64,000 nt of DNA from Zygnema cylindricum (Eukaryota > Streptophyta > Zygnematophyceae > Zygnematales > Zygnemataceae). The notes beneath the pieces were generated by a model. The model made no database searches, had not been told where the DNA came from, and worked only from the letters and a program-made list of their open reading frames with translations. Shown in pieces: positions 5,587 through 27,997 of the stretch; the first letter of the stretch is position 1; the number at the start of each line of letters is the position of its first letter. The stretch covers positions 78,811-142,810 of the forward strand of contig JBBHKE010001156.1 in the NCBI GenBank assembly GCA_037447655.1, read 5' to 3'. Both the position numbers and the translations under genes were made by a program.

Positions 5587-8500
5587 TACATCAAAAAGCA
5601 TATTTTTGTTTTATCCACCATGCTAAACCATGCCTCTCAGCGCCTAAAGACATTTGAAGGGGTGAAAAACGAACTACCTTGCAATGGGAATGACACTGTA
5701 ACATCTGCATCGCGTAAGGAGGAACACGTCAAAGTGCCAACTTCTTCTACGCAAAACGGAATCGCAGAAGACGGGCCAGCTGAACTTTACCGTAGTCTTA
5801 AAGCTCTGGGGACATTTTTTTTAACCATGACTTGTCTTTGCCTGTTTTGGTTTGTTTAACACATGAAAAAAAACAATTCGTTATGTTTTGTCCGTCTGTG
5901 TTCAATACGACAAAAAAAAGTACACAATTTGTTTGGTTTTGTCCGTTTCTGTTCAGTACCAATTTTTTTTACAGGGGTCTCGAAATTCTGATGCCATTTC
6001 AAGTCGACCGGGCAGAAGACGCTAAGGCAAAACGCATCTTCTTCAACCGTGAAACTGCACAAGGAGGAATGCGCTACGTCTACAATGTCACAGTAAGGGT
6101 AACGTTCCATCAAGCAAAAAGTGGGGAAGTTTACAGAAATCCGCGACTCTCCGTACCAAATCGTACCACCTATTTTGTTTTTATACGAAAAACTACATTA
6201 CAGAGAATCTTGCCAATACTCTTCAAAGGTCTTGAGGTAATTATGGCCGTCGGATGTTCATCTGCGAGGAGTCCGCTTCATATTTCTCTGTAATTGTCAA
6301 CCCACCTCGAGCAGGTGGTTGGCACATACAGAAAAAAAAAAGTTCGTGACACGTTGGAATATTAGGCTACGTGTCATGATGTAAAACCAACGAGATAACT
6401 TAAGCTTTGCACATGACACACGCTTTCCAAAATACAACCGAAAATAAAAACGAAATTTCGTAACATTCTTTCATCACGCTATTTTTGGTAACTTTTGTTC
6501 GTCACACTATTTCTCTCAAAGGACTTTCGTTATGTTCGAAAACAAAAACCCTAAAAAATGAGCTGGCGTACAGACTGGCTTCTGCAAAAAGTATAAAGGT
6601 TTTGTCGTATGATTACTTCGTATGCAGGTACATGGTACGAAAGTGAAGATTTGAAGTTAAGTTTGTCGGTGCTAAAAATCTCAAAGATATTCAATATCAG
6701 TTCGTAGCTTGTGTGGCGCCAGTCAATTTTGAACATGTGGCTTACAGACTCTTCGTGATGGAACATCGACTCAATCGACCCGGTCTGTAGAGTTGGCCGT
6801 ACAATTACAAAAACATCTGATGGAACTTCACCCTAAGACATGCGACGTCACAAGCAATTCCAAAAAATAACGTGCGACAACACAGATTGTAGACACTGAC
6901 AACCGTCACAGGTATTGTCGACATATACAGTCGTCACAAACGTAAGTTACGATTACGTTCTTACACATAGGGACACTTGAAATCCGGGTCCGACGGATCT
7001 GCGCTAAAATAAAAAGTAACTTCGCTAAGTTCCAAGTTCATGGGGACATACCCTAAATCCCGACCAAAAATCTCAAATCCTGCCGGCGCCGACATTTAGC
7101 AATAATGTAAAATCCTCCTTAAAGGCTTAAACCCTTAACCAAGTCGTCAAGTTCATCTAGTCGTGATCCTCCACCTGTTATATCCATGTAGACATACAAA
7201 GCCAAGAATGATAAACGTCACTATTTAGATGTGACGACAACTGTAAGATTGTCTAAAAAGAACTCTAAGGATATGCTACGTGTACGGAAGAGCGTCTTTG
7301 TTACTGTGTACAAAACTTCCAAATGAGATGCAAATCTCTAAACCTTTTCTACAACTTATAGAATGACACGTGTCACTTAGCACAAACTTTTAAAGCCCTA
7401 GACATTTTGTTGTGTGCTTGTGGAATTAGATGATAGCATGAAGGGTACAAAACGTACGGATTTTCACTTTGTTACGAAAATGCGTTAATTTTTTAAGATT
7501 TTGAAATTTTCGATAATTCGTATACTTTTCATGTACGGACAAAATATTGGACAAAACGTACGGAAATCTTAAAAAAAATATTGAAATTACACCTTGAATC
7601 ACTATTAAAGTTAGAAAACGATACATATTCCCATGCTTTTAGGGTAGCCGCGAAAGTCTGTGTTCACATATTCGACACCTGAATATGTAAGAACTGGTTA
7701 GCGCTATTTTCATTCGTCTTTATGATTTGGAATCAAATCTTCGTACGATTTTCCGTGCAACGCGCTCAATTTCCATTGTCGACGCATTTCGTCTGACACC
7801 TATTTTGTATGTCTGTACAAAATAATTACAAGCTTTAGTACGGACTGCCACATTTCGTACGCTACACTATTTAATAACTTTCGAAATTAATAACTAACGA
7901 TATTTAAACAGTACCTATATTTGAGTATGCTTTTCCGTGCGACGCACTCAATTATCCTTGACGTCGCCATTACCTTACACATATTTTGTACGTATGTAGC
8001 GGTTCAAGTGTTCAACCTTTTACAAAATCTTAAAAGTCAAAGATCCAATAAGGCTAATCTGCTTCACCTCATGTTTTCCGCGCTTTTTTTGGACATATAA
8101 AAAGTTTTCACTTTTCACCAATTCGGTTATTCGGTTTGTCGATCTTGTGCTCGATTTGGGTAACACGTCACTCTATCTCAATGCGTCAAGTTCCATAGAG
8201 CGTTCGTATCTTTACAAGCGTCCACGGAAGCCGTGCGACAAGATATCTAGGGTTTAAAGTTCATGTTTTGCCTCTTTAAAGCTATAGATGGCCTCCGGGT
8301 TTGCCAAATGGAGTTGGTGCACCGACTCCGCGCCCATACAAGCCACAACTTTTTTTTAGGCAACCTTATGGTTATGCGTATATTACGTGTTTGATGACAC
8401 AAGTCAATCAATGCCCGTTACACGTGCATGGTTCGTGTCGTGTTTTAGTTGCTACTGATACAGGCATGCTACGTAGTACGTACATGCCTAGTACGGAAAA

Positions 8501-9010
8501 TCGTATGAAAAATCGTACATTATATGGGCATGTATCGTGTGTTGTTTTTACGCTTTGCTAAGCCTTACCAAGTATTATATAAAGATGTGTTTATGTGTCA
8601 AATAAGCAATTGTATGACATACATTATATGTAAGGAGTCTTTGTGCAACTTCTATTGGAACAACAACCATAGTGTGATTGTATGAGCATAAAAAAACGCA
8701 CGCACTTCCAAACAGCAAGAATATTCCATTGAAGAAATAGTAGTGTCGGAACATAAGTGTGTCGAAGTATGTTTACCTATGTAGCTTACTTTAAAAGGTT
8801 AATAATCTAAATATGATTAGACTGAAACTTTTGATATTAACTTTTTATAGCTCTAACAATGTTTACAGATAAGTTTCTTTTGAAACTTATCTATTTCAAT
8901 ATTGTAAAAGAAAAGTCAATTTTCACGCTGTATTACCCTGTCTTGTTTATGGAAATTTCTAAATTGTCGTGCATGACAGTACAACCGTGAATGGCATGCA
9001 TCACATCCCG
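5587..9010. repeat. AT-rich dispersed repeat, no convincing gene
   Basis: The stretch is rich in cgtacgg/gtacgg words. Pieces at 5966-6091 and 6832-6960 are homologous to 47440-47780. A 79-codon frame at 5620-5859 and a frame over 5972-6091 (bounded by ttttttacag and gtaagg) could be exons, but neither matches a family I recognise. Nothing else from 6960 to 9010 looks coding. Confidence 0.45.
6092..6827. mobile_element. Possible non-autonomous DNA element with TCAC target duplication
   Basis: Relative to the copy at 47440-47660, which is continuous, the copy here is interrupted by 736 bp flanked on both sides by TCAC (6088-6091 and 6828-6831). The insert starts agtaagg and its reverse end starts agttccatcag; gttccatca lies near both ends in inverted orientation. 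The alternative is an intron (gtaagg donor, cctaag acceptor), but the ungapped copy keeps bases equivalent to cctaag, which favours insertion. Confidence 0.4.
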
Positions 9011-9015
9011 CGTGG

Positions 9016-10063
9016 TGTAGAAACTAATGGTTTTATTAGTATTTTCTAGGTCTGAAAAGAAATATAGAAGTCGAGGCAGTCTATCTCTAACTTCTCTCTC
9101 CAACTCTCAAACTTGTCGCAGTCATTTAGAAATTGGAGAGGAAGCTAGAGCCATGGCTACCTTGGCTTTCCTGAGGTTTACGGGAATTTTATATTAGGGT
9201 TTATTTATTTATTTAAAAGGTATGTGCCGGCGGCAGGATTTGATCCTTGTACCTACCGGCCGGCAGACAGGAAATAGCCGGTAGCCTTAGCCGTTAAGTC
9301 TAGCGGTAGTGTTACATAGCATATAGTTTGATATTTATTTAAATATGTATACGTGCGATAAACAATTAACTGAAATGAATTACGGGATACATAGATCCAG
9401 TAATATATAATGTACGACTTACGGTACGGACAAAAATCAGTACCGCGCATTTGTTTCGTAAATGAAACAAATACCGCGCATGTATTTATTACGGCTACGA
9501 TTAAAGCCGAATTTAATCGGACGGCCGGGATTAGCGCCGAGATCGCGGAGGAAGATTTCGGCGGTTTGTGGCCATCGCCACATCGGATGACGCGTGGCGA
9601 AATTCCGTTGGATTGTGGAATCTCCGGAGATTATGGCACCGAATCCGGATTTGACATGTGTCGACATTTTGGCCATGTCGTACAATGTCCGTACATAAAG
9701 TACACCGGCAGCTGTACTTTTGCGTACGGAACTCAATTCTGATTGGTTCCGTACATCAGTAGATAGAGTCTGTGAGAGAGATAGGACTTAGAAAAATTAG
9801 AAGATAGGACCCCCTCTCCCAGAGAGCTTCTGTACAAAAGGTCAACTTTGACCCTCCATAACTTACTGCTCAGGGGAGCAAATTCAGAGATTCTTTTTGC
9901 TACCGACTCAGGGGAGTCTTCCTTTTACAAAGGTGGAAGTGGTCAGGTTTTTTGTCTGCCAAGGTGGCAGTTATTTTTGCTGGATCACAAAGGGGTCAGG
10001 ATTATCCTAGAGGCTTCTTGGAAGCTGTCTACTCTGAGGACTTATGGAGGTTTCAGAGTTTCA
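9016..10063 (+). repeat. 5' LTR of A
   Basis: It runs from tgtagaaactaatgg to gagtttca. It has an early U3 block with gtcgaggcagtctatctc and gagccatggctacc. The tRNA-like module is on the minus strand at 9224-9303, about 208-287 nt into the LTR: taacggctaaggctaccgg, then caaggatcaaatcctg, then a gccggcaca end. Confidence 0.93.
9224..9303 (-). other. tRNA-like module inside A 5' LTR
   Basis: The minus strand shows an A-box-like taacggctaaggctaccgg and a B-box-like aaggatcaaatcctg about 30 nt apart, with a GC-rich arm between them as in long-variable-arm tRNAs. The module is repeated at 14624-14703 in the 3' LTR. Confidence 0.5.
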
Positions 10064-10078
10064 GGTTATGGGCCCACC
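10064..10078 (+). promoter_or_regulatory. Primer binding site matching the initiator tRNA-Met anticodon arm, containing the gag ATG
   Basis: ggttatgggcccacc begins at the first base after the LTR. Its complement ggtgggcccataacc is the anticodon arm of plant initiator tRNA-Met, as in Drosophila copia, which primes from a cleaved 5' half of that tRNA. The ATG at 10068-10070 pairs with the CAU anticodon and opens the gag frame. Confidence 0.85.
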
Positions 10079-11010
10079 CTCTAGGGTACCAATCTTTAAT
10101 GGAACTGGCTTCATATACTGGGAAAGTATGATGATGGGAGCTCTATGCGAAAAAAGGTTTTGGGGATAGTGAGTGGACGGTTGGGGCGTCCATCAAGTCT
10201 TCGAATTCCTTTAGTGTTTCGAGGAACCAGATTCACCAGGAAAGAGGATCCACCTTCAACGTAGGAAACAAAAAAATGAGAGGTGGTGGACAAAGGAAAG
10301 GAGAAGGAGACGATCACACCAATAGCAACTGGTTCGACATTTATGTCACCTATTCCGAGGAATGAGGAGAATGATACTAAAACCTGGGACTTTAACAATA
10401 TGGCGGCAAAACACTTCATCCTACGCCATCTCACTCAAGGACTTGCATGTCCTCATTTGCAGGTAGAAAGGGCATCCGATCTTTGGATGGCTCTCATAGA
10501 GATGTACCGAAGTGGTACGATTCAGCAACAACAGTTGGCTGATCAGAAAGTTAAGGAGTATGTATACAAAGGGGGAAATATGTTGGATTTTTGCAATGAG
10601 CTTGCTACACTCTTCATGGAGCTAGAGAGTGCGGGAAAAGATTTTAGTGAAAAAGAAAAGGTTAACTGTTTACTGATGAAGTTACCTGATGAGTTCGTGA
10701 ACATAGTTTACCGTGTGCAGGACTTGCCTGACTCAAGGTGGATATGGAACTCAGTGGTAGGGATGATTCTCGTTCAAGAGAATACAATTGAGATCCGAAG
10801 GGGAGGAAAGAGTGGCCAAGCCTTGGCAATAGCAACTGATTAGAGGAACAGAGATTCCCGAAAACCGGTCAGAAACTATGGGGGTAGGGAGCAGAAAAAA
10901 CAGGCCGACGAGTTCGAACAAAGGGCTCCCAAAGGTTTATGTCATTTTTGTAAGAAACCAAGGCACTATATGGCAGAGTGCACTAAGCTAACCGAGCTTC
11001 GGTAAAAAAA
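10068..11010 (+). pseudogene. gag: gag of element A, broken
   Basis: Starting at the ATG inside the primer site, the frame reads MGPPSRVPIFNGTGFIYWES, the copia gag N-terminus. A one-base loss in a G run (~10154-10158, compared with H) shifts the frame. The body is open from ~10283 (KTWDFNNMAAKHFILRHLTQ, then IQQQQLADQKVKEYVYKGG) to a TAG at 10841-10843, where H has a Ser codon. A CX2CX4HX4C zinc knuckle follows (CHFCKKPRHYMAEC), with the usual Gly before His replaced by Arg. A one-base insertion in an A run at ~11005-11013 then breaks the link to pol. Gag would form the virus-like particle and bind RNA. Confidence 0.85.
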
Positions 11011-12482
11011 AAGGGCAGACCGGTGGTACCCCGAGAGGAAAGAAAAAGGCCCTTGTCACACAGGTACTTGAGGCGGAATCCGAGGACGAGGACGATGAGC
11101 GCCTTTTGGATGAGGAGTTGGAGGCGAAAAACGAGGTCAAAATTCCACGAAGGCAGAAATGTGTTTACGGTGGATTGAAAAGTGAAGCAGGCTGGATTGT
11201 AGATTCAGGTGCCTCCATGCACATGTGTAAGGATAGACACCTGTTCACTAAGATAAGAAAGATTCCCACCGTAGAGATACAGTACGGGGATGGGAGGATA
11301 GTCACCACTACTCTTGTAGGATCGGTAGATCTAAAAGTGTTAGTAGAAGGAAAGACATCCATATTAACATTCTCCGATGTATTGTTTATTCCGCAGCTGA
11401 ACAAAAATCTTATCTCTACATCAGTATTAGATGATAAGGGTTTTTTTACTAGCACTAGGGAAGGAGTCTTTACTGCTAGTTTTGAGGATGATGTCTATTT
11501 CATTGTTGAGAAAGGTAGCCATGGGATGTTTAGGCTGATCTTAAGTAATGAAAAGAAGAAACTTTATTATGCTGGTGTTCATGATATTATGATGTGGCAT
11601 AAGAGGCTTGGGCATGTGAATCTAGATAAGTTAAGAGAGATGAAAAAGATGGGAGTGGTGGAAGGGATTCAGTTCAGTGAGAGTGATGATATAAGTGATT
11701 GTAGTGGATGTGCTCAAGGTAAAGCACACAGATTACCCTTTCCTAAGTCAGCCACCTATAAGGGAGAAAAAATTCTAGATCTAGTACACACAGATATTTG
11801 GGGACCGGCTAAAGTGCCCTCACCGGGGGGGAAGAGATTTATGATGACTATAACTGATGATTGGTCTCGGTATTCCCGGGTATATTTTTTGAAAAATAAG
11901 TCCGAAGCTGAGGATTGTTTTAGACAATATAAAGCATGGAGCGAAAAACTCCATGAAACTCCAATCAAGAGAGTAAGGAGTGACAATGGTTGAGAGTATA
12001 CTTCTAACCAGTTTGAGGATTTTCTGAGGGAAGATGGGGTTCAACACCAAAAGACAGTTCCAGAAAATCCGGAACAGAATGGGGTAGCTGAAAGGTTAAA
12101 TAGAACACTAAGTGATAGTGCTAGAAGTATGTTGTCAGATAAAAAGATAGGGAAAAGGTTTTGGGCAGAAGCAATGAACTGTGCTAATTACCTCAAGAAT
12201 AGAGTTCTTACTTCAGCTATAAGAGATCAAACACCTTATGAGAGATGGACAGGCCGGAAACCAGACATATCTCACTTAAAGGTTTTCGGCAGTCAAGTGT
12301 TCAGTCTAGATACTGATCGGTCCAATTGGAAGCTAGATCCTAAAGGAAAACCGGGATACTTATTAGGATATGATGAAGATGTTAAAGGATATAGAGTTTA
12401 TGATCTAAAAAGGGAAGATATAATCTTAGTAAAGCATCTAGTAGTTATGGATGAAGGAAAGTCTGTGGATCCCTTCAAATAA
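11011..12482 (+). pseudogene. pol: pol of A, part 1: protease and integrase
   Basis: The open frame 11106-11993 holds the aspartic protease (WIVDSGASMHMC), the GAG-pre-integrase zinc region (HKRLGHVNLDKLREM … CSGCAQGKAH) and the integrase core (DLVHTDIWGP, TITDDWSRYSRVYFLK, RVRSDNG). A TGA at ~11991 interrupts the core just after SDNG. Integrase continues (QNGVAERLNRTLSD; FWAEAMNCANYLKNR; TPYERWTGRKP) to a TAA at ~12481 after VDPFK, where H has a Tyr codon. The catalytic Asp residues of the D,D-35-E motif are visible. Confidence 0.9.
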
Positions 12483-14402
12483 ACGAAGTCAGTAAAAATC
12501 AGATTTGAGTCAGAAAATTCCGATGACTTTGAGCTTCCTAACTATCCAGGTTTTAGAGAAGATGACATTCTTGCAGGAACAAATCAGACCGAAAAGGACT
12601 CGGCTGTGGAAACTCCAGTGACAACTCTACTCGAAGCGGAAGACGTGGTGGAAATTGATTCGGAATCAAGGGATAGGGGAGAAGCCGAGTTTGTTCGAAA
12701 GAATCCACGAGAACCATCTATTCAGGCCTCAGATTTTGAGGGGGGGAGGAGAAGTAGCAAAAGACTGCAAGAAAAACAGGTTAATAACAAGGTAACTAAA
12801 CTATCTCATCAAGATGAACCTCAAACTTATGGAGAGGCGATGACTTGTCCAGAAAGAAACCGGTGGAAGACAGCCATCAATGAGGAGATGGCTTCAATCA
12901 TGGCAGCCGATACTTGGGAGCTGGTGGACTGTCCACCTAACCGAAAACCAATCGGTTGTAAGTGGGTTTTCAAATTAAAACTGAACCCAGATAACACAAT
13001 CGAACGCTACAAGGCCAGATTAGTGGCAAAGGGATTTACACAAAAGGAAGGAATTGACTACGAGGAAACCTTTACCCTGGTGGTCAGATTTCCCTCCGTC
13101 CGCATACTTCTCAGTTTAGCAGCGGCGGAAGACATGGAAGTGCATCAGATGGACATCAAGACAGCCTTTTTGCATGGAGAATTGGAAGAGGAGATCTTCA
13201 TGCGACAACCCGAAGGTTTTGTGGAGGAAGGAGAGGAGAGTAAGGTATGCCGTCTGATTAAATCTCTTTATGGTTTGAAAAAGGCACCTCGACAATGGAA
13301 TAAGAAGCTTGATGAGTTTCTTACCGGTCTGGGATATATTCGGATCAGCTCAGATCACTCAATCTATGTTTTCGAAGATGAGGAAGGTTTGATATTTATT
13401 GCAATTTATGTTGATGATTTGCTTGTATTAAATAAATCAATGGAAAAAATTAACAAACTGAAAACCGATCTTAAGGGGAGATTTGAAATGAAGGATATGG
13501 GAGAAGCAAGATATATTTTGGGAATTCAAGTAGAGAGAGACCGAAAAAGGAAAATTATAAGATTGACTCAAAAGGAAGCAATAGGGAACATGCTTGAAAA
13601 ATTTCAAATGGATAAAGCTAATAGTTGTACAACTCCAATGGAGTTGAAGAAGGTAAGTGAGGGGAGTGAGGAAGAAGGAGTCATAGTCTTAGAAGAGGAA
13701 TTATCTCCTGATGAACAGAAGTTCATGCAGACTATTCCTTACAGGCAAGTAGTGAGAAGTCTAATCTATTTTATGAATTGTACCCGGCCGGATTTAGCTG
13801 CAGCTGTAGGAGTGCTGAGTAGAAGTCTAAATGCTCCCACTAAGAAGGATTGGGAGGCAGCTAAGAGAGTCCTTAGATATTTGGTAGGAACTAGAGATCT
13901 ATGGTTGCATTTGGGTGGGGAGAATACTGACATCACTACTTGGAGTGATGCCAGTTATGGTGATGCTCCGATGAGGAGATGTACTTCTGGTTATGTATTA
14001 TATGTGGGTGATGGGGCTTGCTGTTGGAGTAGCAAACAGCAAAAGGTTATTGCTCAGTCCACCATGGAGGCTGAGTATATGGCCTCTTGCTCTGCTGTAA
14101 AAGAATTGATGTGGGTCAAGTCTTTGCTTGGTGAGCTTGGTCACCTTAAGAGTGGTGTGCAGAAAATATTTTGTGATAATCAGGCAGCAATCGCTATTTC
14201 TGCCAATCCTAAACACCATTTTAAAGCCAAACACATGGACATCAGACTCAGCTTTGTTAGAGAGAAAGTAGAAAACAAAATAATCAGTTTAGAGTACAGA
14301 CCAGATAGTGAGATGGTAGCAGATATGATGACCAAACCTATGCCTTCCCCTAAGCTAATTTTTTGCAGGGAGAAGTGTGGTCTGAAATTAAAGATTGACT
14401 AG
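12483..14402 (+). pseudogene. pol: pol of A, part 2: reverse transcriptase and RNase H, open
   Basis: A 598-codon open frame (12606-14402) begins with an acidic linker and RRSSKRLQEKQ. RT follows: GCKWVFKLKLNPDNTIERYK, LVAKGFTQKEGIDYEETF, VHQMDIKTAFLHGELEEEI, SLYGLKKAPRQWNKKL and catalytic YVDDLLVL. RNase H follows with WSDASYGDAP, QSTMEAEYMA, CDNQAAIAIS and KHMDIRLSFVRE, ending KLIFCREKCGL. The A/V change in ETFTLVV and K in GLKKAP suggest drift. This is the longest open frame in the window, but it has no intact upstream gag-pol. Confidence 0.93.
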
Positions 14403-14403
14403 A

Positions 14404-14415
14404 AAATAAGGGGAG
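14404..14415 (+). promoter_or_regulatory. Polypurine tract of A
   Basis: aaataaggggag abuts the 3' LTR. The same tract (with ggggag or agggag) occurs at every 3' LTR of the A, B, D, E and G families here. Confidence 0.85.
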
Positions 14416-15464
14416 TGTAGAAACTAATGGTTTTATTAGTATTTTCTAGGTCTGAAAAGAAATATAGAAGTCGAGGCAGTCTATCTCTAACTTCTCTCTC
14501 CAACTCTCAAACTTGTCGCAGTCACTGAGAAATTAGAGAGGAAGCTAGAGCCATGGCTACCTTGGCTATCCTCAGGTTTACGGGAATATTATATTAGGGT
14601 TTATTTATTTATTTAAAAGGTATGTGCCGGCGGCAGGATTTGATCCTTGTACCTACCGGCCGGCAGACAGGAAATAGCCGGTAGCCTTAGCCGTTAAGTC
14701 TAGCGGTAGTGTTACATAGCATATAGTTTGATATTTATTTAAATGTGTATACGTGCGATAAACCATTTAACTGAAATGAATTACGGGATACATAGATCCA
14801 GTAATATATAATGTACGACTTACGGTACGGACAAAAATCAGTACCGCGCATTTGTTTCGTACGTGAAACAAATACCGCGCATGTATTTATTACGGCTACG
14901 ATTAAATCCGAATTTAATCGGACAACCGGGATTAGCGCCGAGATCGCGGAGGAAGATTTCGGCGGTTTGTGGCCATCGCCACATCGGGTGACGCGTGGCG
15001 AAATTTCGTTGGATTGTGGAATCTCCGGAGATTATGGCACCGAATCCGGATTTGACATGTGTCGACATTTTGGCCATGTCGTACAATGTCCGTACATAAA
15101 GTACACCGGCAGCTGTACTTTTGCGTACGGAACTCAATTCTGATTGGTTCCGTACATCAGTAGATAGAGTCTGTGAGAGAGATAGGACTTAGAAAAATTA
15201 GAAGATAGGACCCCCTCTCCCAGAGAGCTTCTGTACAAAAGGTCAACTTTGACCCTCCATAACTTACTGCTCAGGGGAGCAAATTCAGAGATTCTTTTTG
15301 CTACCGACTCAGGGGAGTCTTGCCTTTACAAGGGTGGAAGTGGTCAGGGTTTTTGTATGCCAGGGTGGCAGTTATTTTTGCTGGAACACAAAGGGGTCAG
15401 GATTATCCTAGAGGCTTCTTGGAAGCTGTCTACTCTGAGGACTTATGGAGGTCTCAGAGTTTCA
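14416..15464 (+). repeat. 3' LTR of A
   Basis: It runs from tgtagaaactaatgg to gagtttca and matches 9016-10063 apart from scattered substitutions and a one-base indel. The tRNA-like module is at 14624-14703, minus strand. Confidence 0.93.
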
Positions 15465-15469
15465 CGTGG

Positions 15470-15746
15470 GTCGCTGAAGAACACAAGCAAATGAATGACC
15501 ATTACATATGTACAGTACTTGTGACCACAATCGGAGAACAAAGCATATATACTGCAAGAAATAATAAATAAATCTGCCTGAAAAGAAACAAATAATTTCG
15601 AACACATGGACTTAGCCAGGAAAGAAAAGACAAAACAAGATCAAGTAAGTAAGGATGGAATTCCCCCCCCTCCGGTGTATGCTGGGAGAGACCAACTCAT
15701 GTGACTAGGTTCCAAAAAATCGTAAATAGTGTGATCTGTGTCGAAC
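15470..15746. other. Unassigned flank between copia A and the methyltransferase fragment
   Basis: The stretch includes a C8 run at 15663-15670 and no domain I recognise on either strand. If element K continued downstream of the methyltransferase, RT or integrase should be here; none is visible. Confidence 0.4.
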
Positions 15747-16190
15747 TTAGCGGGGAAAGGAAAAAGAGCAAGCTGAAAAGTTGTGCTCGAAGAGAAGGTG
15801 AGGACTTGGAAGCTGTGTGTTTAAATGGTGTATGCCCGCCCCAGTTGATTGAGACCGATGGTTCTGTGCGTATCGACCAGCTGCGAACCCCTTGCCTAAG
15901 ACAAATGACAGTGATTGGGGATCCATGACACGATCAAGTAAGGTGCAGCGCTGCCTCTCGGTGAGTCTCGGAGCAGCAGTGGTGCCTGAGATGAAATCTA
16001 AAAGATGTTCTCGTTCTGTAGCAGTAGGTTCTTCTAAGCTGCCTGTATGAGTGTTCTGAAGCATGCCCGGTCCATTATTGGAGTATGCGTGAGAATGTGG
16101 ATATGCAACTAGTGTAGGAAGTGCACGTAGTGGTTGGCTAGGGATGTTAACACCAAATGCAGGAGGATAGCTAGTGTAGGCAGTGCACAT
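15747..16190 (-). pseudogene. Element K: C-terminal part of DNA cytosine-5 methyltransferase
   Basis: The minus-strand frame contains EEPTATEREHLLDFISGTTA followed by a Leu/Arg-rich segment ending DPQSLSFVLGKGFAAG. This pattern matches the last conserved block of C5-methyltransferases (motifs IX-X: P-T-x-x-E-R-E-x-L-x-x-F…G, then a helix near the C-terminus that closes the SAM pocket). It is separated from the catalytic part by a 62-bp tandem duplication that shifts the frame. Downstream sequence (PSPHLLFEHN…) is not recognised. Confidence 0.6.
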
Positions 16191-16231
16191 AGTGGTTGGC
16201 CAGGGATGTTAACACTAAATGCAGGAGGTCT
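16109..16231. repeat. 62-bp tandem duplication inside the methyltransferase
   Basis: Two copies begin with ctagtgtagg at 16109 and 16171 and end in aaatgcaggagg. They differ at a few positions. Because 62 is not a multiple of three, the duplication shifts the reading frame between the catalytic and C-terminal parts. Confidence 0.85.
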
Positions 16232-16259
16232 GGACCTTATAAAATGGAAGAAGTGCATC

Positions 16260-16850
16260 CTATATGGAAAGGTTAGGTGGACGGACAGCGAGGTTAGCTT
16301 CTCGGAGCCGACCCATGTCCACCAGGTTAGTCCACTTTGAACGAACCCGGTGGGCCAGTGAACCGTGGCGTGCGGCATCAATGATCAGTGGTGGTCCAAT
16401 TAATGATTCAATGCGTTTATAATCTGCGAGGACTGTAGGTCGAGGGTCATTGTAAGCTGCTACATACTCTAAGATGTATCCAAAAGGACGATCCAATTTT
16501 TGGAAGAAATGGATCAGACGAACCACCTCGAAGAACAGCTTAGTGCGCAGATCTGCAAGACCTAAACCTTTCCCGGCCCTAGACATACCCTGACATTCCC
16601 ATCCGGCAAAGAGGAGATCAATTGGTTCCAATTCCATTAAATGATGATTCCCTATTAGCCGGATAACCTGTGGCAACGCCGAATGCATATCGTGGAACGC
16701 AGAGAGGGGTAAGAGATAGGGATACTGCTCGTGCAAGACTTGACATAGGTGCAACTGAGCGCGTCTGGCTAAAGGATCAATATCTACAGAATAGTAATGC
16801 TTTATGAGAAGACCGTTCCGAAGGCAAGAGAGAAGTGAAGTTCCTATTCA
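16260..16850 (-). pseudogene. Element K: catalytic part of DNA cytosine-5 methyltransferase
   Basis: Reading the minus strand from 16850: motif I ends DLFV-stop-IGT (TGA at 16850-16848 where a Gly codon is expected), then a motif-II-like SVDIDPLA. The open frame 16754-16260 holds motif IV (LLFAGWECQGMSRAGKG, catalytic Cys near 16595), LADLRTKLFFEVVRLI, a motif VI equivalent (GYILEYV, ~16469-16461) and a motif VIII-like AARHGSLAHRVRSKWTNL. This is the order of a C5-cytosine methyltransferase acting on DNA. The canonical PCQ is ECQ and ENV is EYV; both are conservative enough to keep the family call. The frame is fused downstream of a retroviral-type protease, so it belonged to an LTR element and not to a host gene. 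Confidence 0.82.
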
Positions 16851-17375
16851 TACAAAAAGGTCTAAGATAACGAGACCGTTTTGGTGAGGTTGTAAGTTGA
16901 CCGGTGTCCATTTAATGGGCAAGAACCCGGAAGGATCTATCGCACTGGAGGGTGGATCTGGAATACTAGATAAAGGAATTGGTATAGTAAATTTATATAG
17001 TCGGTCAAAATCTGAAGAGTCAATAGTAAATCCGGGTGTACTAAATAATTTTGGTAAACTCGAGGAATCTGGTGAGATTTCATCCGCTGTTAGAGATTCA
17101 AGGATGTCTGCACCTATGCCAACTGCGGCATAGGCTGGCAATATCAGTGCCAAATGGGCCGTAGTCGGCATGGGTTGTCGGGCCGAGATAAGGGGTAAGC
17201 AAATTTTGCGTTCCGAAAAATTGTTAGGTCTGTATGAAAATGTTTGATCATGCATATCAACCCCCCCCCCCCCCAACTCGGAAGATAACGTCTTGACCGA
17301 CCAAGAATTCATAGTCACTACACTTGGTGACCAAGGCGTGAGCATAAATTTCTGCGAAATTCGTCGCTGACTCAC
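16851..17375 (-). pseudogene. Element K: linker between protease and methyltransferase, with motif I
   Basis: This minus-strand frame overlaps the end of the protease frame and continues it after the C14/G14 run at 17261-17274. It runs through an uncharacterised Pro/Ser-rich spacer (SARQPMPTTAHLAL…, IPIPLSSIPDPPSSAIDP) and ends NGLVILDLFV, the SAM-binding motif I of the methyltransferase. Protease and methyltransferase were therefore probably one polyprotein. Confidence 0.7.
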
Positions 17376-18330
17376 TCTGAAACTGAAAACAGATTGGGTC
17401 TATCGTAATACCGAGGACTGGCTCTGTGGTACATGCGGAAGTCAATAGACGTGTGGTAGTGGGTTGCAGCTTATCTGCTGTAAGACCTATTTTGATGGCA
17501 AAATCAGAACCGAGGATAATTGGCTTTGCACCTGTATCCATGAGAGGAAGTGTCGGAGAAAACCCATTAACTGTGAACATGCCCAATTTGTTATCTAGAA
17601 AACTGATGTGAGGAGTGAGGCTAGACCGCTTTTCAAGAGTAATAGCTTGAAGGGAGAGAGCATTACGATGGTTTTGTAATGCTTGTAACGCAGTTGCTGA
17701 AGGAGTTAGATCTATAATTTTTTCATTGTTAACCAACTCTGGAAGCATGGTGGACAGGATGGACAACCGTTCTTTGACCTTATATGTGTCTTGTATGCTC
17801 CTCTCTAAAATAGTTAATGCTTCAGAGGTGATGCTTGAAGCCGTTTCTGGAATAGGGGAGCGAGGTTCTTTAGCAAATGATAGTGGGATACGCGTGTTAA
17901 TGGATTTTGACTCACGATTATGATCAGGAGTCCCTTTAAAGTGAGCCGCACGCTGTTGAACAGTGGACTCCCAAAGAGATCGCCCAGCAAAAGAGGGCAT
18001 GTGGACCACAGTTTGAGCCATTCCGGTTAATTGCGGTTTGACTTGCGCCATAAGCACGGCAAATTGCTCCTTCATCATAGCTTCTATGGTGGCCTGCATC
18101 TCGGCTTTCTCTCTGTCCCTTCTGCTGATTTTTGGAGGGTTGTCTTTCTCCACTCTTTTGGGTGGAGTGACCAATTTTGCCGAGCGAGCAGGTATACCGC
18201 TGTTTTTGATTTGATTTTGATAACTGAAATCGGGATTTTTAATGTGACATCGATGTACATAATGACACGTTTGATTACAATGACTACATGTGGCGGTCTT
18301 ATCCGGACAGCTACGTGAGTCGTGATTATT
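17257..18330 (-). pseudogene. Element K: second zinc knuckle and aspartic protease
   Basis: The K-derived part of this open frame starts after the J insertion, roughly residue 37 of a frame opening at 18447. It holds a CX2CX4HX4C knuckle (CSHCNQTCHYVHRC), a Lys/Arg-rich stretch, a long helical linker and a retropepsin-like domain with PLMDTGAKPIILGSDFAIKI (catalytic DTG, residues ~304-306) and a closing FLVGQDVIF. The frame runs off in poly-Gly at the G14 run. The DTGAKP and FLVGQD pattern suits Ty3/gypsy-type proteases better than the copia DSGAS form seen elsewhere in the window. Confidence 0.78.
17261..17274 (-). repeat. G14 homopolymer at the protease-methyltransferase junction
   Basis: Fourteen C on the plus strand (G on the coding strand) lie exactly where two overlapping frames of one polyprotein change over. 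It may be a decayed slippery tract, a replication-slippage mutation or a sequencing error. Confidence 0.9.
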
Positions 18331-18335
18331 GTTAC

Positions 18336-19571
18336 TGTTGTTCTTTGGTCTAAAATAGACCGCAGAAGCGACCCAAACTATCATGCAAGAAGCTAAGCAA
18401 AAATAGGTCGACGAACAATCATTTGAAATGCATCCTCCATTTAACATACATCAACTAAGGTTTGATGGAAAAATCAACATAAACAAACCCTAGGACAAAT
18501 GCATAAACAGTGCATATAAAATAACATAAATAAATAATAACAAACAAATACATTACACAAAAACAAAAGTATAATCAAATATTCATTATATCATTCAAAG
18601 TGCATGACCTAATCGACAACCCTAAAACACTACATCTTTGGTCCCCACTTTACTAACCAGCATTGATGATTCGCTAACAAAGCTCATAGCTATATATACA
18701 CTTGTGAGCTGTCAACAAATCACTAAGTGTCAAAATAACCAACATACATTACGTAACTGTCATCAAGTCTTATTTAACCATAATAGACCATCACTAAGAA
18801 TAAATTAATCTTAAGCGTACACCTGAAAGTCAAACAATCGTAAGCGTACACTTGTCTACAAGTACAACATCGTACACACACAAATTACACTATCGAAAAC
18901 CCTAATTGATCACTTAAATAAAAAATGTCATAATCAATACTAAATTAATAATACACATAAGACAAAACAATGTTGTATCAAATATTTACACCGACGCGTC
19001 CGCAAAATACGCGTCATAAGCGACAGCTCGCTTAGTCACTTGTAGATAGATCCACGTAGTGAACCGACATCGCATATGTACGGTCCACTAGATAATGCGT
19101 CATAAAAACAATACGATCCCTTGGAAATATCGGCGGACGTCGTCCGCCCCTCCACGTGTAGCTCGAACCACTGCCGAAATTAAACCGTACTATCCAAATC
19201 CTGTTCGTATGAAACCACGTATTTTGTCATAAATGTCACGTGTCAAATACGACGCTCCGTACCGGCGGCGTCACATTTAATAAATGCGATCTGTCGCATT
19301 ATGTTTCGTATGGCCGGCGTACTTTTCCAAACCCTTCGAATATTTCAAATCAAATCAAGAAGCGATCCGCCGTCCATTTTTATTTCGCATTCCGTATTTT
19401 TCGTACGCTTCTTCGCGTCACTTAATTTGTACTTTTACGTCACCTTAAATTCATCCGTACAATTACCCCCCAATCCACAAATCCATTCGAACCACCATAT
19501 TACATCCGGTTACTAAGTATGCGAACACGCGAGCGCACGCATGTACGAAAATGAATCTTCCAAAAACAACA
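18336..19571 (-). repeat. 3' LTR of J
   Basis: Twin of 20516-21750 at a spacing of about 2179 bp. It contains short identical open frames in both copies (e.g. 19240-19425 and 21419-21604), which are shadows of the duplication and not genes. Confidence 0.92.
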
Positions 19572-20515
19572 CTCCCCCGAAGATTTAGTTTCGTAAATCC
19601 ATGACGCCACGTCATCATCTGTCACACTCCATAGATCACTGTTACCTCCTGATGTCTCCTCCATCTGAATCCGCCAAATGCCTTCGACCAAAATTTTCCC
19701 ACTTGTTCCACCATCGCTTCCGCTGCCTCCACATACCATCCAGATTCCATAATACATAATATATATATATTTTCATTTTCCGATTACAACAAAATTTTCT
19801 ATTTTCTCAACAATATCTAAATCTGATTCTACTTCCACAATTCTATCTCAAGTCAACTAAAAATTAAAACTAAAGGATCACACTAATAATATAACCCAAC
19901 TCAAAATTTATACCTCAACCATATCAAATCTCGATTTCAATTTTTTCTTTTCCTTTTAATAATCTCATCCCAAAAATTTTCATTTAAAATACATTTAACA
20001 AATAGTATTTTCCCAAAAATCTAATAATGTCACATTTCCCAAAAATTTCCAACAACTCAAAATCTACATTACAAATCCAATTTTCAACAATCATCGATCC
20101 ACAAAATTTGGATCTCTCCACCACATGTCACAACTCCACCTTCCGGATCTCTCTCCCCTAAACGTCAAATCTCCTCCTTCCACATCTCTCCACTAAATGT
20201 CAAATCTCCACATTTCGAAATGCTTCATTAAAAAAAAATAAACATTTATTTTCCAAAACTAAAATATCGATTCTCAAAATAAATCATTTTCATTGAGGGT
20301 AGATATTTCGGCACTGTCACTAAGTTAACCCTTGGGGCGATGCATGATTAAACTCGGCACATACCAACACTATGATAAGGCCGATCTCATGGGTACACAG
20401 ACACCATTACTGCAATACAACCAGCAAGAACAAAATTAACCCGCTACAATGCGTGTGACACAATCCTATCTCGACTTAACCTAACATATGATAGATGGGG
20501 TGTGGGCCCATAACC
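19572..20515 (-). other. Interior of J, non-coding
   Basis: AT-rich with many short C-rich words (ccaaaaattt). No gag or pol motif on either strand. A weak upstream leader could be present after the primer site at the right end. Confidence 0.75.
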
Positions 20516-21750
20516 TGTTGTTCTATGGTCTAAAATAGACCGCAGAAGCGACCCAAACTATCATGCAAGAAGCTAAGAAAAAATAGGTCGACGAACAATC
20601 ATTTGAAATGCATCCTCCATTTAACATACATCAACTAAGGTTTGATGGAAAAATCAACATAAACAAACCCTAGGACAAATGCATAAACAATGCATATAAA
20701 ATAACATAAATAAATAATAACAAACAAATGCATTACACATAAACAAAAGTATAATCAAATATTCATTATATCATTCAAAGTGCATGACCTAATCGACAAC
20801 CCTAAAACACTACATCTTTGGTCCCCACTTTACTAACCAGCATTGATGATTCGCTAACAAAGCTCATAGCTATATATACACTTGTGAGCTGTCAACAAAT
20901 CACTAAGTGTCAAAATAACCAACATACATTACGTAACTGTCATCAAGTCTTATTTAACCATAATAGACCATCACTAAGAATAAATTAATCTTAAGCGTAC
21001 ACCTGAAAGTCAAACAATCGTAAGCGTACACTTGTCTACAAGTACAACATCGTACACACACAAATTACACTATCGAAAACCCTAATTGATCACTTAAATA
21101 AAAAATGTCATAATCAATACTAAATTAATAATACACATAAGACAAAACAATGTTGTATCAAATATTTACACCGACGCGTCCGCAAAATACGCGTCATAAG
21201 CGACAGCTCGCTTAGTCACTTGTAGATAGATCCACGTAGTGAACCGACATCGCATATGTACGGTCCACTAGATAATGCGTCATAAAAACAATACGATCCC
21301 TTGGAAATATCGGCGGACGTCGTCCGCCCTCCACGTGTAGCTCGAACCACTGCCGAAATTAAACCGTACTATCCAAATCCTGTTCGTATGAAACCACGTA
21401 TTTTGTCATAAATGTCACGTGTCAAATACGACGCTCCGTACCGGCGGCGTCACATTTAATAAATGCGATCTGTCGCATTATGTTTCGTATGGCCGGCGTA
21501 CTTTTCCAAACCCTTCGAATATTTCAAATCAAATCAAGAAGCGATCCGCCGTCCATTTTTATTTCGCATTCCGTATTTTTCGTACGCTTCTTCGCGTCAC
21601 TTAATTTGTACTTTTACGTCACCTTAAATTCATCCGTACAATTACCCCCCAATCCACAAATCCATTCGAACCACCATATTACATCCGGTTCCTAAGTATG
21701 CGAACACGCGAGCGCACGCATGTACGAAAATGAATCTTCCAAAAATAACA
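20516..21750 (-). repeat. 5' LTR of J
   Basis: Followed on the minus strand by the half-tRNA-type primer site at 20502-20515. Ends match those of the 3' LTR. Related, more diverged pieces lie at 34557-~34990 and 48042-~48990. Confidence 0.92.
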
Positions 21751-21755
21751 ATTAC

Positions 21756-22995
21756 CACATCGAAAACATACACGAACATTAGGGTTTGTTGGTAATGTTC
21801 CCATGGCTGGAGTCCTTGGGTGTCTCGGATTGGGCCATGGGATGCGTGGATTAGGATTCGGGTTTGCATTAGGAGAAGATTTGGGTCGCTCATGAGCGTC
21901 CCACTAGTTGGTCTGCATTTCATACCGTAAGGCATACTATGCAGCCTGCTCGAAGGTAAATTTGAGGACATATGCCTCAATCAAATGGCTTTGAATGAAA
22001 CGTCGAGATTAGGTGGGAAATTGCCCCACAAATTTCTGAACTGCCTCTGCGTCTGACATGAGATCTGGCGTTGCTTCACGTAATGTTTCCATACGTGCTC
22101 GCAATGCCGGAGCGGTTTCGCCCGGGCAACTTTCGAAATTCATTAGTTCTTTAACCTGATCGAGATTCTGCATTCGGTACTCTTCTTGTAATAAACTGAA
22201 AACAAATGATACTGGATCCTTTAGAGGAACCAACATTGCAGGGCGGGCTGGAATTGCAGCCCGAGCCGCAACGGCGAACTGATGAGGGACCTCAGGTGTT
22301 TTAGGTGAAATTTCGTTACCTGCAGAGTCATAAACTGCGGGTACCGCAGCTTGGAAAAGAATTTTTGGACTGCCTGTTATGGCTAAAGATCCAGAATATG
22401 CGGGTGCCATTTCTGTCATAGCACAAATTGCCGCATATTTCCGTGTATATAGAGATAGGGCAGATCCCCTAAGGTATCGCCCAAGTAACAAAAAAGCAAC
22501 TCGTAAATCATAACGGTCTTGATACCGGAATGCGAGATCGCGCATCTCGGTATCAAAAAGCATTCGAAAATGTGACAAGGACATAGTGTCCTTGAGACCG
22601 GAAAAACAAAACTGATTTCTACCTCCTCCTGTGTCTATAGGCGAGGCCATATCCCCAAAATAGGAATCGGAGTTTGTGTGTATATTATCGCTCAAAGGCA
22701 AAAGCGAAGGTGGTAGATTTATATCCCTGATATCAAAAGAGTCTATATCCGAATCTTCCCCCCAGCTATGGGAAGAGGATGAGGAGACAGATGATGTAGA
22801 TCTATATGTAGTGGTAATACCAGATCTAGAGTCAGGTGAACTCGTAAGCTGAGACTGAGCAGACTGACCAGTATGACCTAAAAGCTGGACAGGAGGTGAG
22901 CGAGCGGGAATCAAATCCCGATCCGGTCCACGGTAAAGACTGGAGCTCCTAGTGGTACCAGCTGGAAACAGTAAATTGTTCCAGTCTGTTGGCAT
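21756..22995 (-). pseudogene. gag: Element K: gag with the first half of a zinc knuckle
   Basis: A 328-codon open frame (22995-22009) starts with a Ser/Thr-rich N-terminus, then an acidic segment and a helical capsid-like region (DTMSLSHFRMLFDTEMRDL, FLLLGRYLRGSALSLYT, VSFVFSLLQEEYRMQN, ALRARMETLREATPD). After a frame end at 22009, similarity to a gag tail continues to 21756, ending RVCFRCGN, the first CX2C of a zinc knuckle. The other half (NNHDSRSC) lies at 18330 on the far side of J, so J split this knuckle. Which Pfam gag family it belongs to cannot be told by eye. Confidence 0.65.
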
Positions 22996-23850
22996 GTAAA
23001 TAGACAGTCGTCTTATCCGGATGCAACTAGATGCCGGACCCTACTCAGGGTCATTGTGCAAATGCCCACCGCCAGATCTAATAATCAAATCACATAGGCA
23101 GTCTTCAAATTCACGCAAAAAAGCACCCACGCAAACAATTACCCCCGTAAACGATTTGATCTATTCTGTATCACCGGGGTTAGTCTAATCGTGAACACCC
23201 CTAACAAGGTTGTTCACAGCCAGATCTAAGCAATACCACAATAAGTCATTTCAAGCCACTCCAAGAAAAAACATGTCACCTATGCAAGAGCAATACCACA
23301 ATAAGTCATTTCAAGCCACTCCAAGAAAAAACATGTCACCTATGCAAGGCCACTTGTGGCCAGATTGAATGAAACAGGAAACTATTCAAGGCCCATAAGG
23401 CCAGATGTAGTAAAACATGAAACTATCTAAGGCCCACAAGGCCAGATGTAATAAAACAGGAAATTATCCAGGCCCAACAAGGCCAGATGTAATAGACAAA
23501 AAGTCGTTATCCAAGACCAATCACGGTCAGATCTTAAGAAAATGCAACCACAATGCCTATGCGGAAAGGAAAGCACAGCCTTCGGTTGGATCCTAACCCC
23601 TCTAGGTTACCGCACTTAACAACCTATCACGCGCGTGCAACCACAAGGACCCGACTACTCACCTGGACCGATAGCACCAAATATGATACTGCAAGCTCCA
23701 CTTCCTATCCAATTCCAAGTTGTCGAGAAACACCACAGCTCAATGACCAACTTAGTTAGTAGCCTGTTACGACATGCGTGTCAACACTATGCCACGCTCT
23801 GCCCGTCTATAAACCAATGATAATTTGCGTGAAAATTTGTGCAACCTAAT
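22996..23850 (-). repeat. Probable K leader/LTR region with tandem repeats
   Basis: A 58-bp unit (caataccacaataagtcatt…) is duplicated at ~23231-23347. It is followed by about five imperfect ~53-bp units (aaggccagatgtaataaaac) at 23345-23545. The region is upstream of K gag and is a likely leader or LTR, but I could not find its ends. Confidence 0.4.
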
Positions 23851-24227
23851 ATGTATATACGGTCGATGTCAGACTGTACATAAATGTACCTTTTCAAGTG
23901 AAAAATTTTCAAATAATGAAATAAATCAGACGCGCACGTATAGGAACGTACGCTCAAAACACGCGATTATTCTGGCACGTAAATTAGTTTGAAATGTACG
24001 GATATTTAAATTTCACGACTGCGTACGATTTCTTATGTTTTGTACGGATACATATATTAATGTTTATTTTCTTACGACGAATATTCTATTTTTGCTATTC
24101 CCAAATTAGCATAATGCCGAAATTAGAATACACCCATTTAAAAAAAATCAAATTCTTAATTAACATCAATTACTGTGTATTTTCTTCTACGTTAGTCAAT
24201 CTTTGACATTAATAACTATTCGCGGTG
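23840..24227 (-). mobile_element. Left-truncated copy of a TIR element related to 25785-26304
   Basis: About 390 bp align with the right part of the element at 25785-26304 (e.g. aatcagacgcgcacg, acggatacatatattaatg). It ends in attcgcggtg followed by TA, but no matching left terminus is visible. Confidence 0.6.
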
Positions 24228-25784
24228 TAGTAGAAGCAAAATGGCTTTGTAGTCAGTTCCACTTTTAACTTTTCCTGATTTCTAGTGTCCCAAGCTTCGA
24301 GCTTTCTACACTTCCCCGCATTAAAACACTTTCGCATGCAGTCCATAAACACTTAGGGAATACGGTTTAATCTCAAGTATAGTACTGAACTTATCATGGT
24401 GCAGTACGACGATGAGGGTTGGTCTCCATGTACATGAAGCTTAAGGGAATTACTTTTTTGTTAGCGCAGATCCAACGGACCCATATTTTAGGTGTCCCTT
24501 TTGTGTAACAAAAATAATTGTTACTTAAAGGTGTGACGATTGTATATGTTGACAATACTCGTGACGTTTGTCAACGTCTACAATTTGTGAAGAGGCACCC
24601 GATTGTTTACAATTTGTGATGACGCTCCCATTTGTTCAAAAATTGTCAGTGACGTCGCCTATTTTTATGTGACATTTGTAGACATTTACCTTTTCAACCC
24701 TTTGTCCATGGATGTTGTCCATTGCTGACTCTGCCTTCCCTGTACGGCTGCCTTTTTGGCAATTTCCACCCGCTTTGAATCTCTCTACCTATTTGAGAAA
24801 CCTATCTCATATTTGATAAAGTTACAAGAAGTTGAAGTTTTTCTTTTATTCCCTAATGGATGCGTTGATTTTTCCATTCTTATGTAAAGACTTAAAAGAA
24901 AAACAAAGAAAAATAATAACAATAATCATAATAAAATTTCGCCTTCGTCCATGTTAAAAAACATAGCAATGATAATTGTGGGTTTTCATTTTTTTAAGGC
25001 AAAAAAAAAATCTCCAGCTTCCCACCGGTCTAGCTTCCCACCGGTCTGCGTAAAGCCGTCTGGTGGAAGGACGAGGAATAGTGAAGTTTGAAGGAGAGAA
25101 TGTGAGGTTGCATGAGAGAGGTGGCGCGTGCGACTTGCTGGGGCGTCCTCAAAGATTTCTCAAGATTTTGTCAAATGGCATCGATTTTTCAAATCCCTAG
25201 AATGAAAAATTACGTACTCAACGAAACGCGACAAAACAAAGTAAATTGTGTACTTTGATGGATGCAAACGGACAAAAAATAACGAATACTGCATCTTTCG
25301 CCGTTGCTTGAATTCGTTTGAAATTTGTGTAATTTTTTTTACACGTGCGAATGCGTGTTCCTATTTTATTTGGAAAATACTTTGTTTTAAAACATACCTT
25401 CCTTGTATTTTAAAGAAAAGTTTGAAGATGACTTTTTTTGGCGTGTCCGTGGGTCGAAGAACACAAGACGACAACATGTAGTACATCTTAAGTTCGATGA
25501 TGACGCAAAATGTACTTCTCACTTTTTCTATTTTTTTGTACGGTTGAAACTTTCGTGGACTCTAAGCTTTACAAGAAAAAGACAGAAAAAAACCCTTACT
25601 TAGGCACATGGAGACGCAAAAAACCCTTACTTAGGCACATGGAGACGCACCCTGAGCTTGCCGCAAACTTGTACAATGCAAGGAGTACACCGCTTTGAAG
25701 CATTCAGTTTCACACGACATACCTCACTTGTAGCCAAGAAAACAGCCTTGCAGCGCAAAATGCCAAAAATACTTTTCTACGGTA
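24228..25784. other. No gene seen
   Basis: AT-rich sequence with two small tandem duplications: agcttcccaccggtct (~25017-25046) and a ~31-bp unit acccttacttaggcacatgg (~25590-25650). Short open frames at 25248-25698 have no family resemblance. Confidence 0.4.
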
Positions 25785-26304
25785 CACCGCGAATTGTTAT
25801 TAGTGTCAATAACTCTAGTTTGGGTTCTTAAAATTTTGATTTTTTTCCTCAAATAGGATACATGATTTTAATTTTTCCTTGACGTTAATTAAGGTACCGT
25901 ACAAAATAGCGTAAAGAACGAAAGTACAATAAGATCGAAATAGTGTGGTGTATGGTCAATGTCAGACCGTACATAAATGTACCTTTTCCAATGAAAATTT
26001 TACAAAAAATGAATTAAATCAGACGCGCACGCATAGGAACGTGCGCTCAAAAAACGGGATTAATTTGACATGTACGGATTTAATATTTCACAACGGCGTA
26101 CGATTTCTAATTTTATGTACGGATACATATATTAATGTATATAATCTTACGGCGAACATTCCATTTTTGCTGTTCCCAAATTAGCATTAAGCCGAAATTA
26201 GAATACGCCTTTTAAAAAAAAAAATCAAATTCTTAATTAGCATCAATTACGGTAAATTTTATTCAACACTATTTAAACTTTGACAGTAATAACGATTCGC
26301 GGTG
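25785..26304. mobile_element. MITE-like element with CACCGCGAAT ends
   Basis: Left end caccgcgaattgttattag and right end (reverse) caccgcgaatcgttattac form ~24-bp terminal inverted repeats with two mismatches. It is flanked by TA and TT. 520 bp, no coding sequence. Confidence 0.65.
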
Positions 26305-26439
26305 TTCCGTACTTTACCGTACCGTAGTGAAAATCCCGGGTACGATCCGCCTGTCAGTTCCACATTTCGTACAATGTCGGCGTGTCTTGTCCTATGCTTC
26401 TCGCAACCCTATTTTTTCTCCTCTCAAGTTTCAACCTTA

Positions 26440-27932: not shown

Positions 27933-27937
27933 TGTGG

Positions 27938-27997
27938 GGAAGAGGGAGAGGGAGAGGGAGGGAGAGGGAGAGAGGGAGGGAGAGGGAGAGAGGGAGG
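27938..27997 (+). repeat. GGGAGA hexamer-type microsatellite
   Basis: Purine-only run of gggaga/gggagg units. Confidence 0.9.

Follow-up and report, generated by a model that had tools for sequence, protein, structure and literature searches.

The 64-kb stretch of Zygnema cylindricum DNA analysed here (the window) carries on its minus strand a broken LTR-type element in which gag, zinc knuckles, and a DTGAKP protease are followed, in the same direction and directly behind the protease, by a C5-cytosine methyltransferase (MTase). An initial annotation had proposed this arrangement, and it is confirmed: gag, knuckles, and protease are found as ORFs upstream on the minus strand; every peptide named is present there; the enzyme is borne out by matches to DNMT3A and to Pfam PF00145 above the cut-off, where a profile search empty of C5-MTases had been named as grounds for giving it up; and the span assigned to the MTase (15747-17375) does contain the domain, but is slightly too wide when the domain is bounded by alignment to L009, a relative on C1344 with an uninterrupted 2395-codon frame (Table 1). 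As part of an explanation that we consider probable when taken as a whole, the window element is what decay has left of a Ty3/Gypsy-type retrotransposon present in many copies.

Table 1. Coordinates of the window element, of the L009 reading frame, and of the C1344 terminal repeats.
Feature	Sequence	Position	Strand	Basis
5′ leader of MTase element	window	22996..23858	-	blastn to L009:1456-1999, L018:1300-1830
gag, start MPTDWNNLL, ends within first zinc knuckle (CFRCGN)	window	21752..22995	-	ORF and amino acid alignment
Nested LTR element	window	18336..21751	.	repeat search; empty-site register against L009
Remaining gag (second CCHC knuckle CSHCNQTCHYVHRC) and DTGAKP aspartic protease	window	17257..18335	-	amino acid alignment to L009
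Protease tail and linker (about 16881-17375; frame differs from upstream part from G-run on)	window	16881..17260	-	L009 alignment
ORF with MTase motif I at its end	window	16848-17399	-	
MTase domain, predicted DNMT3 type, motifs I to X, inactivated	window	15834..16880	-	L009 alignment
ORF with MTase motifs II to VIII	window	16260-16847	-	
ORF with MTase motif IX/X part	window	15747-16208	-	
Deletion joint, coding (L009:6011) to G-run before B (L009:9230)	window	15673..15675	-	alignment to L009
First part of B terminal repeat	window	15464..15673	-	88% to B of C1344
Ty1/Copia-type element inserted in B	window	9016..15463	+	class by eye from RT and integrase ORFs
Last part of B, ends ...ACGACA at 8965, element 3′ terminus	window	8965..9015	-	L009 alignment
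Order: gag, CCHC x2, protease, MTase, RT, RNase H, DDE integrase, PHD	L009 frame			Pfam and catalytic residues
MTase	L009 frame	codon 942 onward		
RT	L009 frame	codons 1496-1647		
RNase H	L009 frame	codons 1739-1841		
Integrase H2C2	L009 frame	codons 1962-2015		
Integrase rve	L009 frame	codons 2035-2128		
PHD	L009 frame	codons 2338-2382		
Terminal repeats	C1344	A 85514-86444; B 94737-94978; GC; A 94981-95911; B 95912-96154		

The MTase domain of the window is spread over three ORFs. The middle one, 195 residues long, matches DNMT3A structures (E 8e-9) and scores 32 bits against PF00145 (cut-off 22, far beyond chance); it shares 94% amino acid identity with L009 and 95% with L018, the nearest relatives fetched. 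This part of the copy is damaged at four points: i) motif I reads FV-stop-IG where relatives read FAGIG, the stop being a TGA at 16848-16850; ii) motif VI has EYV in place of ENI/ENV; iii) by eye, a tandem duplication of about 60 nt containing a stop lies at about 16110-16260 in the target-recognition part; and iv) the reading frame is lost at a run of G near 17260.

Upstream, gag (ORF 22009-23040, minus strand, plus pieces) has three in-frame stops, all in its last third, and 81% and 92% amino acid identity to L009 and L018. It is split within the first zinc knuckle by a nested element, window positions 18335 and 21752 corresponding to L009:3395 and L009:3398. The nested element has LTRs 99.35% identical over 1237 bp with about 0.94 kb between them, is flanked by GTTAC/ATTAC (4 of 5 positions alike), and contains no protein that could be recognised; it is a short non-autonomous element that sits in the run of zinc-knuckle codons. 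The protease ORF spans 17257-18450 with DTGAKP at 17521-17538 (both minus strand); taken alone it gives a weak Pfam match below the cut-off (E 0.005), yet it is 92% identical to L009. This copy lacks the 5′ A repeat, as likeness to the relatives ends at 23858.

At the other end, the coding match to L009 ends at 15675 and resumes at 15673 within the terminal B repeat, and thus the window copy lacks RT, RNase H, integrase, and PHD finger; no RT or PHD match lies anywhere else in the 64 kb. The B repeat is itself split by a Ty1/Copia-type element (1.05-kb LTRs, 97.6% identical, target duplication CGTGG), beyond which its last 50 bases (8965-9014) are 100% identical over 50 bp to L009:9430-9479; no A repeat follows the 3′ terminus at 8965. 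Since motif I contains a stop, some 3.2 kb are deleted, and other elements sit in gag and in the 3′ end, the window copy is dead and unable to make the enzyme.

Several further observations concern the surroundings. The Copia-type ORF at 12483-14402 is strongly depleted in CpG (observed/expected 0.45), unlike the MTase-bearing Gypsy family A. Direct repeats at 23858-24228 and 25951-26305 (about 86% identical, 2.08-2.09 kb apart) start where the leader of the MTase element breaks off, and are possibly the terminal repeats of another element. A distant likeness to an integrase core at 53067-53543 (minus strand, 28.6% over 161 residues to L009) is a remnant of another retroelement. CT-rich (CTCCCT)n-like arrays occur at 27030-27170, 28961-29178, and 29541-29682, with an inverted partner at 27929-27998, and there is also a 15-bp tandem array. 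Outside the window on the same contig, a further copy of the family MTase (C866:38687-39256, minus strand) has 74% identity and 3 stops.

By sequence profile ranking and, in the relative L009, by predicted-fold ranking, the family MTase is of the DNMT3 type. A profile of nine sequences (A1) matches the PDB chains of DNMT3A best (83 bits), followed by DNMT3B (78), DRM (52), HhaI (48), and DNMT2 (34), while none of the 57 PDB matches listed is a chain named for DNMT1, CMT, or DNMT5; the AlphaFold model of the L009 domain (pLDDT 81.5) finds DNMT3 entries in all of the best 50 Foldseek matches listed. The relatives also have the SAM-binding motif I, catalytic Cys (IV), ENV (VI), motif VIII, and predicted fold of a C5-MTase. 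The PWWP and ADD companions of animal DNMT3 had no match in a Pfam scan of the whole L009 frame; protist and algal DNMT3s are also said to be without companion domains, in the available text of PMC12344493.

The MTase is under purifying selection. Between subfamilies pN is 0.11-0.16 and pS 0.74-0.81, with synonymous sites near saturation; among unsaturated pairs (dropping those with dS outside 0.05-2 or too little overlap) median dN/dS is 0.22 in family A (8 of 45 pairs) and 0.27 in family B (10 of 28 pairs), a second family described below. The corresponding RT values are lower, 0.07 (A, 7 pairs) and 0.13 (B, 10 pairs), and in the closest pair, L009/L018, constraint on the MTase is likewise weaker (0.18 vs 0.07 for RT). 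CpG observed/expected lies at 0.88-0.92 for three ORFs of family A and at 0.62-0.63 for two of family B; CpG depletion in family A is thus slight, and heavy self-methylation followed by long decay leaves no visible trace there. C-to-T decay in the window copy is raised alike in CG (24/305) and CHG (25/292) relative to CHH (26/874); much the same is seen at reduced rates in L018 (5/239, 7/254, and 6/815), and the pattern is absent from L009 (5/242, 7/245, and 23/864). The CG and CHG decay of the window copy fits plant-type methylation by the host equally well. Base composition and decay do not separate self-methylation from host methylation, and the signal of self-methylation is weak. The inference of the initial annotation that the element methylated its own or host DNA gains no support from these data.

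These data bear on whether the enzyme methylates DNA at all, or has become a nucleic-acid-binding or RNA-methylating part of Pol. Such a change would suit the barely depleted CpG, and also motif IV, which reads ECQ rather than PCQ in the aligned family A sequences and in 39 of 46 outside proteins (PCQ in 5, another triplet in 2); it would suit as well the published yeast experiment, in which KnitGypsy-Dnmt3 produced no methylation, an outcome that its authors treat as non-decisive because DNMT3B failed there too (main text of PMC5890265). Against it, the catalytic Cys, the motif VI Glu-Asn, and most of motif VIII (AHR.R..WTN) are invariant in the nine aligned sequences, family B keeps PCQ, and the domain is under purifying selection. 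We regard a loss of DNA methylation as rather unlikely, but as an alternative to be taken seriously.

A search of the host genome (352,776,454 bases, 2689 contigs), which the initial annotation had called for, found many relatives, among them L009 with its open frame. The genome gives 27 GRAS and 11 NAC matches, and for IFT57 just two, both below the cut-off, a combination that fits Zygnematophyceae. With the window MTase as query at least 150 loci were scored among 1393 candidates, the 150 being 68-100% identical, and with PF00145 at least 123 among 782. Relatives do not occur solely as host genes without gag or protease, which the initial annotation had named as grounds for giving up its reading. 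Pfam matches in L009 place RT and integrase downstream of the MTase, answering the question of their side; the RT has the catalytic motif YIDD and the integrase an intact D,D(34)E. The gag-protease-RT-RNase H-integrase (rve) order of Ty3/Gypsy is found with the MTase between protease and RT, and by that domain order the family is assigned to Ty3/Gypsy. A second family (B), 41% identical to family A in the MTase, has the same domain order in two copies (L012 and L013, by Pfam; L013 also shows a protease match a short way upstream); among eight family B loci an RT match is found in 6 and a PHD match in 3. Of L009, L012, and L013, the PHD finger rises above the curated Pfam cut-off in L009 only, family B falling below it. 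The MTase stays with RT in the host genome: at least 45 of 99 RT places have an MTase within 4.5 kb upstream among the MTase matches listed, and of the other 54, eight were read, showing an MTase in six, part of one in another, and only its last residues within 2.4 kb in the last. One family A copy (L023) lies between inverted repeats of A-repeat-like sequence (29-989 and 8345-9308, 97% identical), and is either rearranged or marks an insertion in the opposite direction.

The initial annotation had suggested that the order gag-protease-MTase may be a distinct lineage. Because RT and integrase lie downstream in the relatives and are deleted here, that order need not mark a lineage and is the left half of a longer one, but MTase before RT does define one side of a strongly supported split (see below). 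A real lineage without RT, mobilised by full-length relatives, would explain why the window copy combines gag, protease, MTase, and a true B 3′ terminus with nothing from RT to PHD. However, all ten family A loci for which 9.9 kb were read (chosen for strong matches or long frames) have pieces of RT, RNase H, and integrase after the MTase, and 8 of the 10 a PHD finger; the window frame is broken several times; and the joint lies at a G-run, within coding sequence before RT. As the joint is a deletion inside a longer domain order, we give an RT-less lineage little weight and think it very unlikely.

The termini of the family do not follow the two plain LTRs of the Ty3/Gypsy type. The two fully read copies have the repeat order A-coding-B-A-B, the A repeats being 100% identical over 931 bp in C1344 (B, 99.6%) and 99.64% identical over 1388 bp in C829 (B, 190 bp, 99.5%); these near-identical A repeats record recent movement. 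C1407 ends B-GC-A-B with a shortened second A, and a search for its 5′ end found none. C783 and C2577 have one B each and no target duplication, and reading on past B for 2.8 and 3.5 kb revealed no second A. The repeat plan was read in family A, the flanks of C544 and C1374 (family B) having left the repeats unread. A G-run precedes the B repeat, and the element ends are TGTCATGCC... and ...CACGACA, that is 5′-TGTC...GACA-3′, of the TG...CA type. Target duplications of 4 bp (TTGG in C1344 and AAGG in C829) flank two of the four family A copies with both ends readable, a chance 4-bp match having a probability of 1/256 per copy. The TG...CA ends and the short duplications in these two copies suggest that the DDE integrase inserted them. 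The internal B-GC-A joint contains both termini end to end plus two extra bases, as we would expect of joined cDNA ends before trimming by integrase.

A DIRS-like element moved by a tyrosine recombinase, with the DDE integrase as a passenger, would share the repeat order A-coding-B-A-B, as the main text of PMC5890265 describes it for DIRS, and would account for the two of four readable copies without a target duplication. Yet Pfam finds no tyrosine recombinase in the L009 frame, D,D(34)E is intact, and the other two copies combine TG...CA ends with 4-bp duplications. We reject a DIRS element, which is highly improbable on the recombinase scan and the duplications.

Protein searches gave an outside set of 46 proteins, few of them with a source name and none identified as a K. 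nitens sequence. By BLAST their domain orders are RT-MT-IN-PHD (29), RT-MT-IN (5), and RT-MT (1), with MT-RT-IN-PHD (3), MT-RT-IN (3), MT-IN-PHD (1), and MT alone (4) making up the rest. Haematococcus lacustris has RT-MT-IN-PHD, its MTase being found by sequence search (E 8.5e-53) with no Pfam match at E 0.01. Closterium sp. NIES-54 has MT-RT-IN, and a search of that protein for a PHD found none. In an unrooted RT tree (50 rows, RT matches below 180 residues excluded) the two domain orders fall on opposite sides of one branch (support 100/100), and in an unrooted MTase tree (57 rows, matches below 120 residues excluded) a group made up of the 35 RT-MT rows and two whose order is incomplete is set apart (100/99). 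On these alignments the simplest reading would be one old association after which the domain moved within Pol; alternatively, there may have been two early captures of closely related MTases. Chance landing of a host DNMT3 gene, or of a retrocopy, in a retroelement has in its favour the DNMT3 type of the enzyme and the native DNMT3 genes of streptophytes (available text of PMC5890265 and PMC12344493), but is rejected as extremely unlikely on the same Pol position in two families here and six outside proteins, on RT and MTase trees that both split at domain order, and on the purifying selection.

The PHD finger has sequence matches in solved structures that include PHF12, KDM5/Lid, BAZ2B, PHF21A, KAT6, AIRE, and UHRF1. 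Several of these read the unmodified H3 tail, and DNMT3 enzymes read the unmodified-H3K4 state through their own ADD finger. The finger thus resembles readers of the unmodified H3 tail in sequence, and from that likeness and the behaviour of the DNMT3 ADD we would make the reasoned guess that it may target integration.

Taken as a whole, then, our preferred explanation is that the window holds a decayed copy of a family whose members carry a DNMT3-type MTase and a PHD finger and may move as follows; we think it probably correct, with a good deal of room for error. The MTase would travel with Pol and methylate either the new cDNA or the DNA into which it inserts; integration would be steered to H3K4-unmethylated chromatin by the PHD finger that follows the integrase; and the B-GC-A joint, an end-to-end copy of the termini, would allow full ends to be restored in reverse transcription. 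The window copy lost its RT-to-PHD part by deletion, received two later insertions, and is inert. More speculatively, a deep green-algal Gypsy clade may be a self-contained epigenetic parasite that both writes and reads, having a DNMT3-type writer and a PHD reader of unmodified H3 in one Pol frame, methylating its own cDNA, integrating in H3K4-unmethylated chromatin, and replicating through a B-GC-A joint cut by the DDE integrase. We put this forward tentatively, as possible but doubtful; if true, the cycle would be unlike those of both standard LTR elements and DIRS elements.

We would emphasise that silencing by cytosine methylation is a weapon of the host against transposons, so that a transposon keeping a methyltransferase is a paradox. 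It is a paradox that looks old and successful: the enzyme has been kept with RT across the split that separates the two domain orders, and it belongs, paired with a candidate histone reader, to an abundant family in which the repeats of some insertions remain identical. In an alga it can be tested which purpose the written mark serves for such elements: shielding cDNA, selecting sites, or keeping themselves in check.

Among known systems, animal DNMT3A/B are the best match of the family MTase by profile and predicted fold. DNMT3 likewise joins a methylating domain and a finger that reads H3; the family differs in having no PWWP or ADD match, ECQ for PCN, and its putative reader in a PHD of its own that follows the integrase. 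In chromoviruses and further Gypsy elements that have a reader fused to integrase (a chromodomain, or Tudor in Ectocarpus), it sits at the integrase C-terminus, as here, but here the putative reader is a PHD finger and a DNA methyltransferase is carried as well (available text of PMC12477816). SymbioDIRS-Dnmt3 and SymbioLINE-Dnmt of Symbiodinium are also retrotransposon-borne cytosine MTases, the former having its own A-coding-B-A-B repeats and two domain orders, but they use a tyrosine recombinase or LINE machinery where the family has a DDE integrase (main text of PMC5890265).

Closest is KnitGypsy-Dnmt3 of Klebsormidium nitens, a Gypsy element whose Pol frame includes DNMT3 and whose repeats are DIRS-like (de Mendoza et al. 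2018, PMC5890265); it is of the same kind and agrees with the statement in the initial annotation that such elements are known from a charophyte. Going by the description in the main text of that paper, the two share a DNMT3-type MTase in Gypsy Pol, a streptophyte algal host, DIRS-like repeats, and purifying selection on the MTase, and by its DNMT3 in Pol, Gypsy domains, and DIRS-like repeats family A is, as judged from its sequences, of the KnitGypsy-Dnmt3 type. Methylation of cDNA was likewise suggested there for such elements. The main text contains none of the terms PHD, PHD finger, plant homeodomain, chromodomain, or "split", and what it says of KnitGypsy-Dnmt3 includes neither target duplications nor a second domain order, its sole mention of the former concerning SymbioLINE-Dnmt and of two orders SymbioDIRS-Dnmt3. 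Beyond this paper and those citing it, the open-licence literature matches listed include no Gypsy element bearing both DNMT and PHD. As far as the published description goes, the family differs from KnitGypsy-Dnmt3 in its PHD finger, target duplications, and recent insertions, and what is new relative to that text is the C-terminal PHD finger and the RT-MTase-integrase order of Haematococcus and other proteins.
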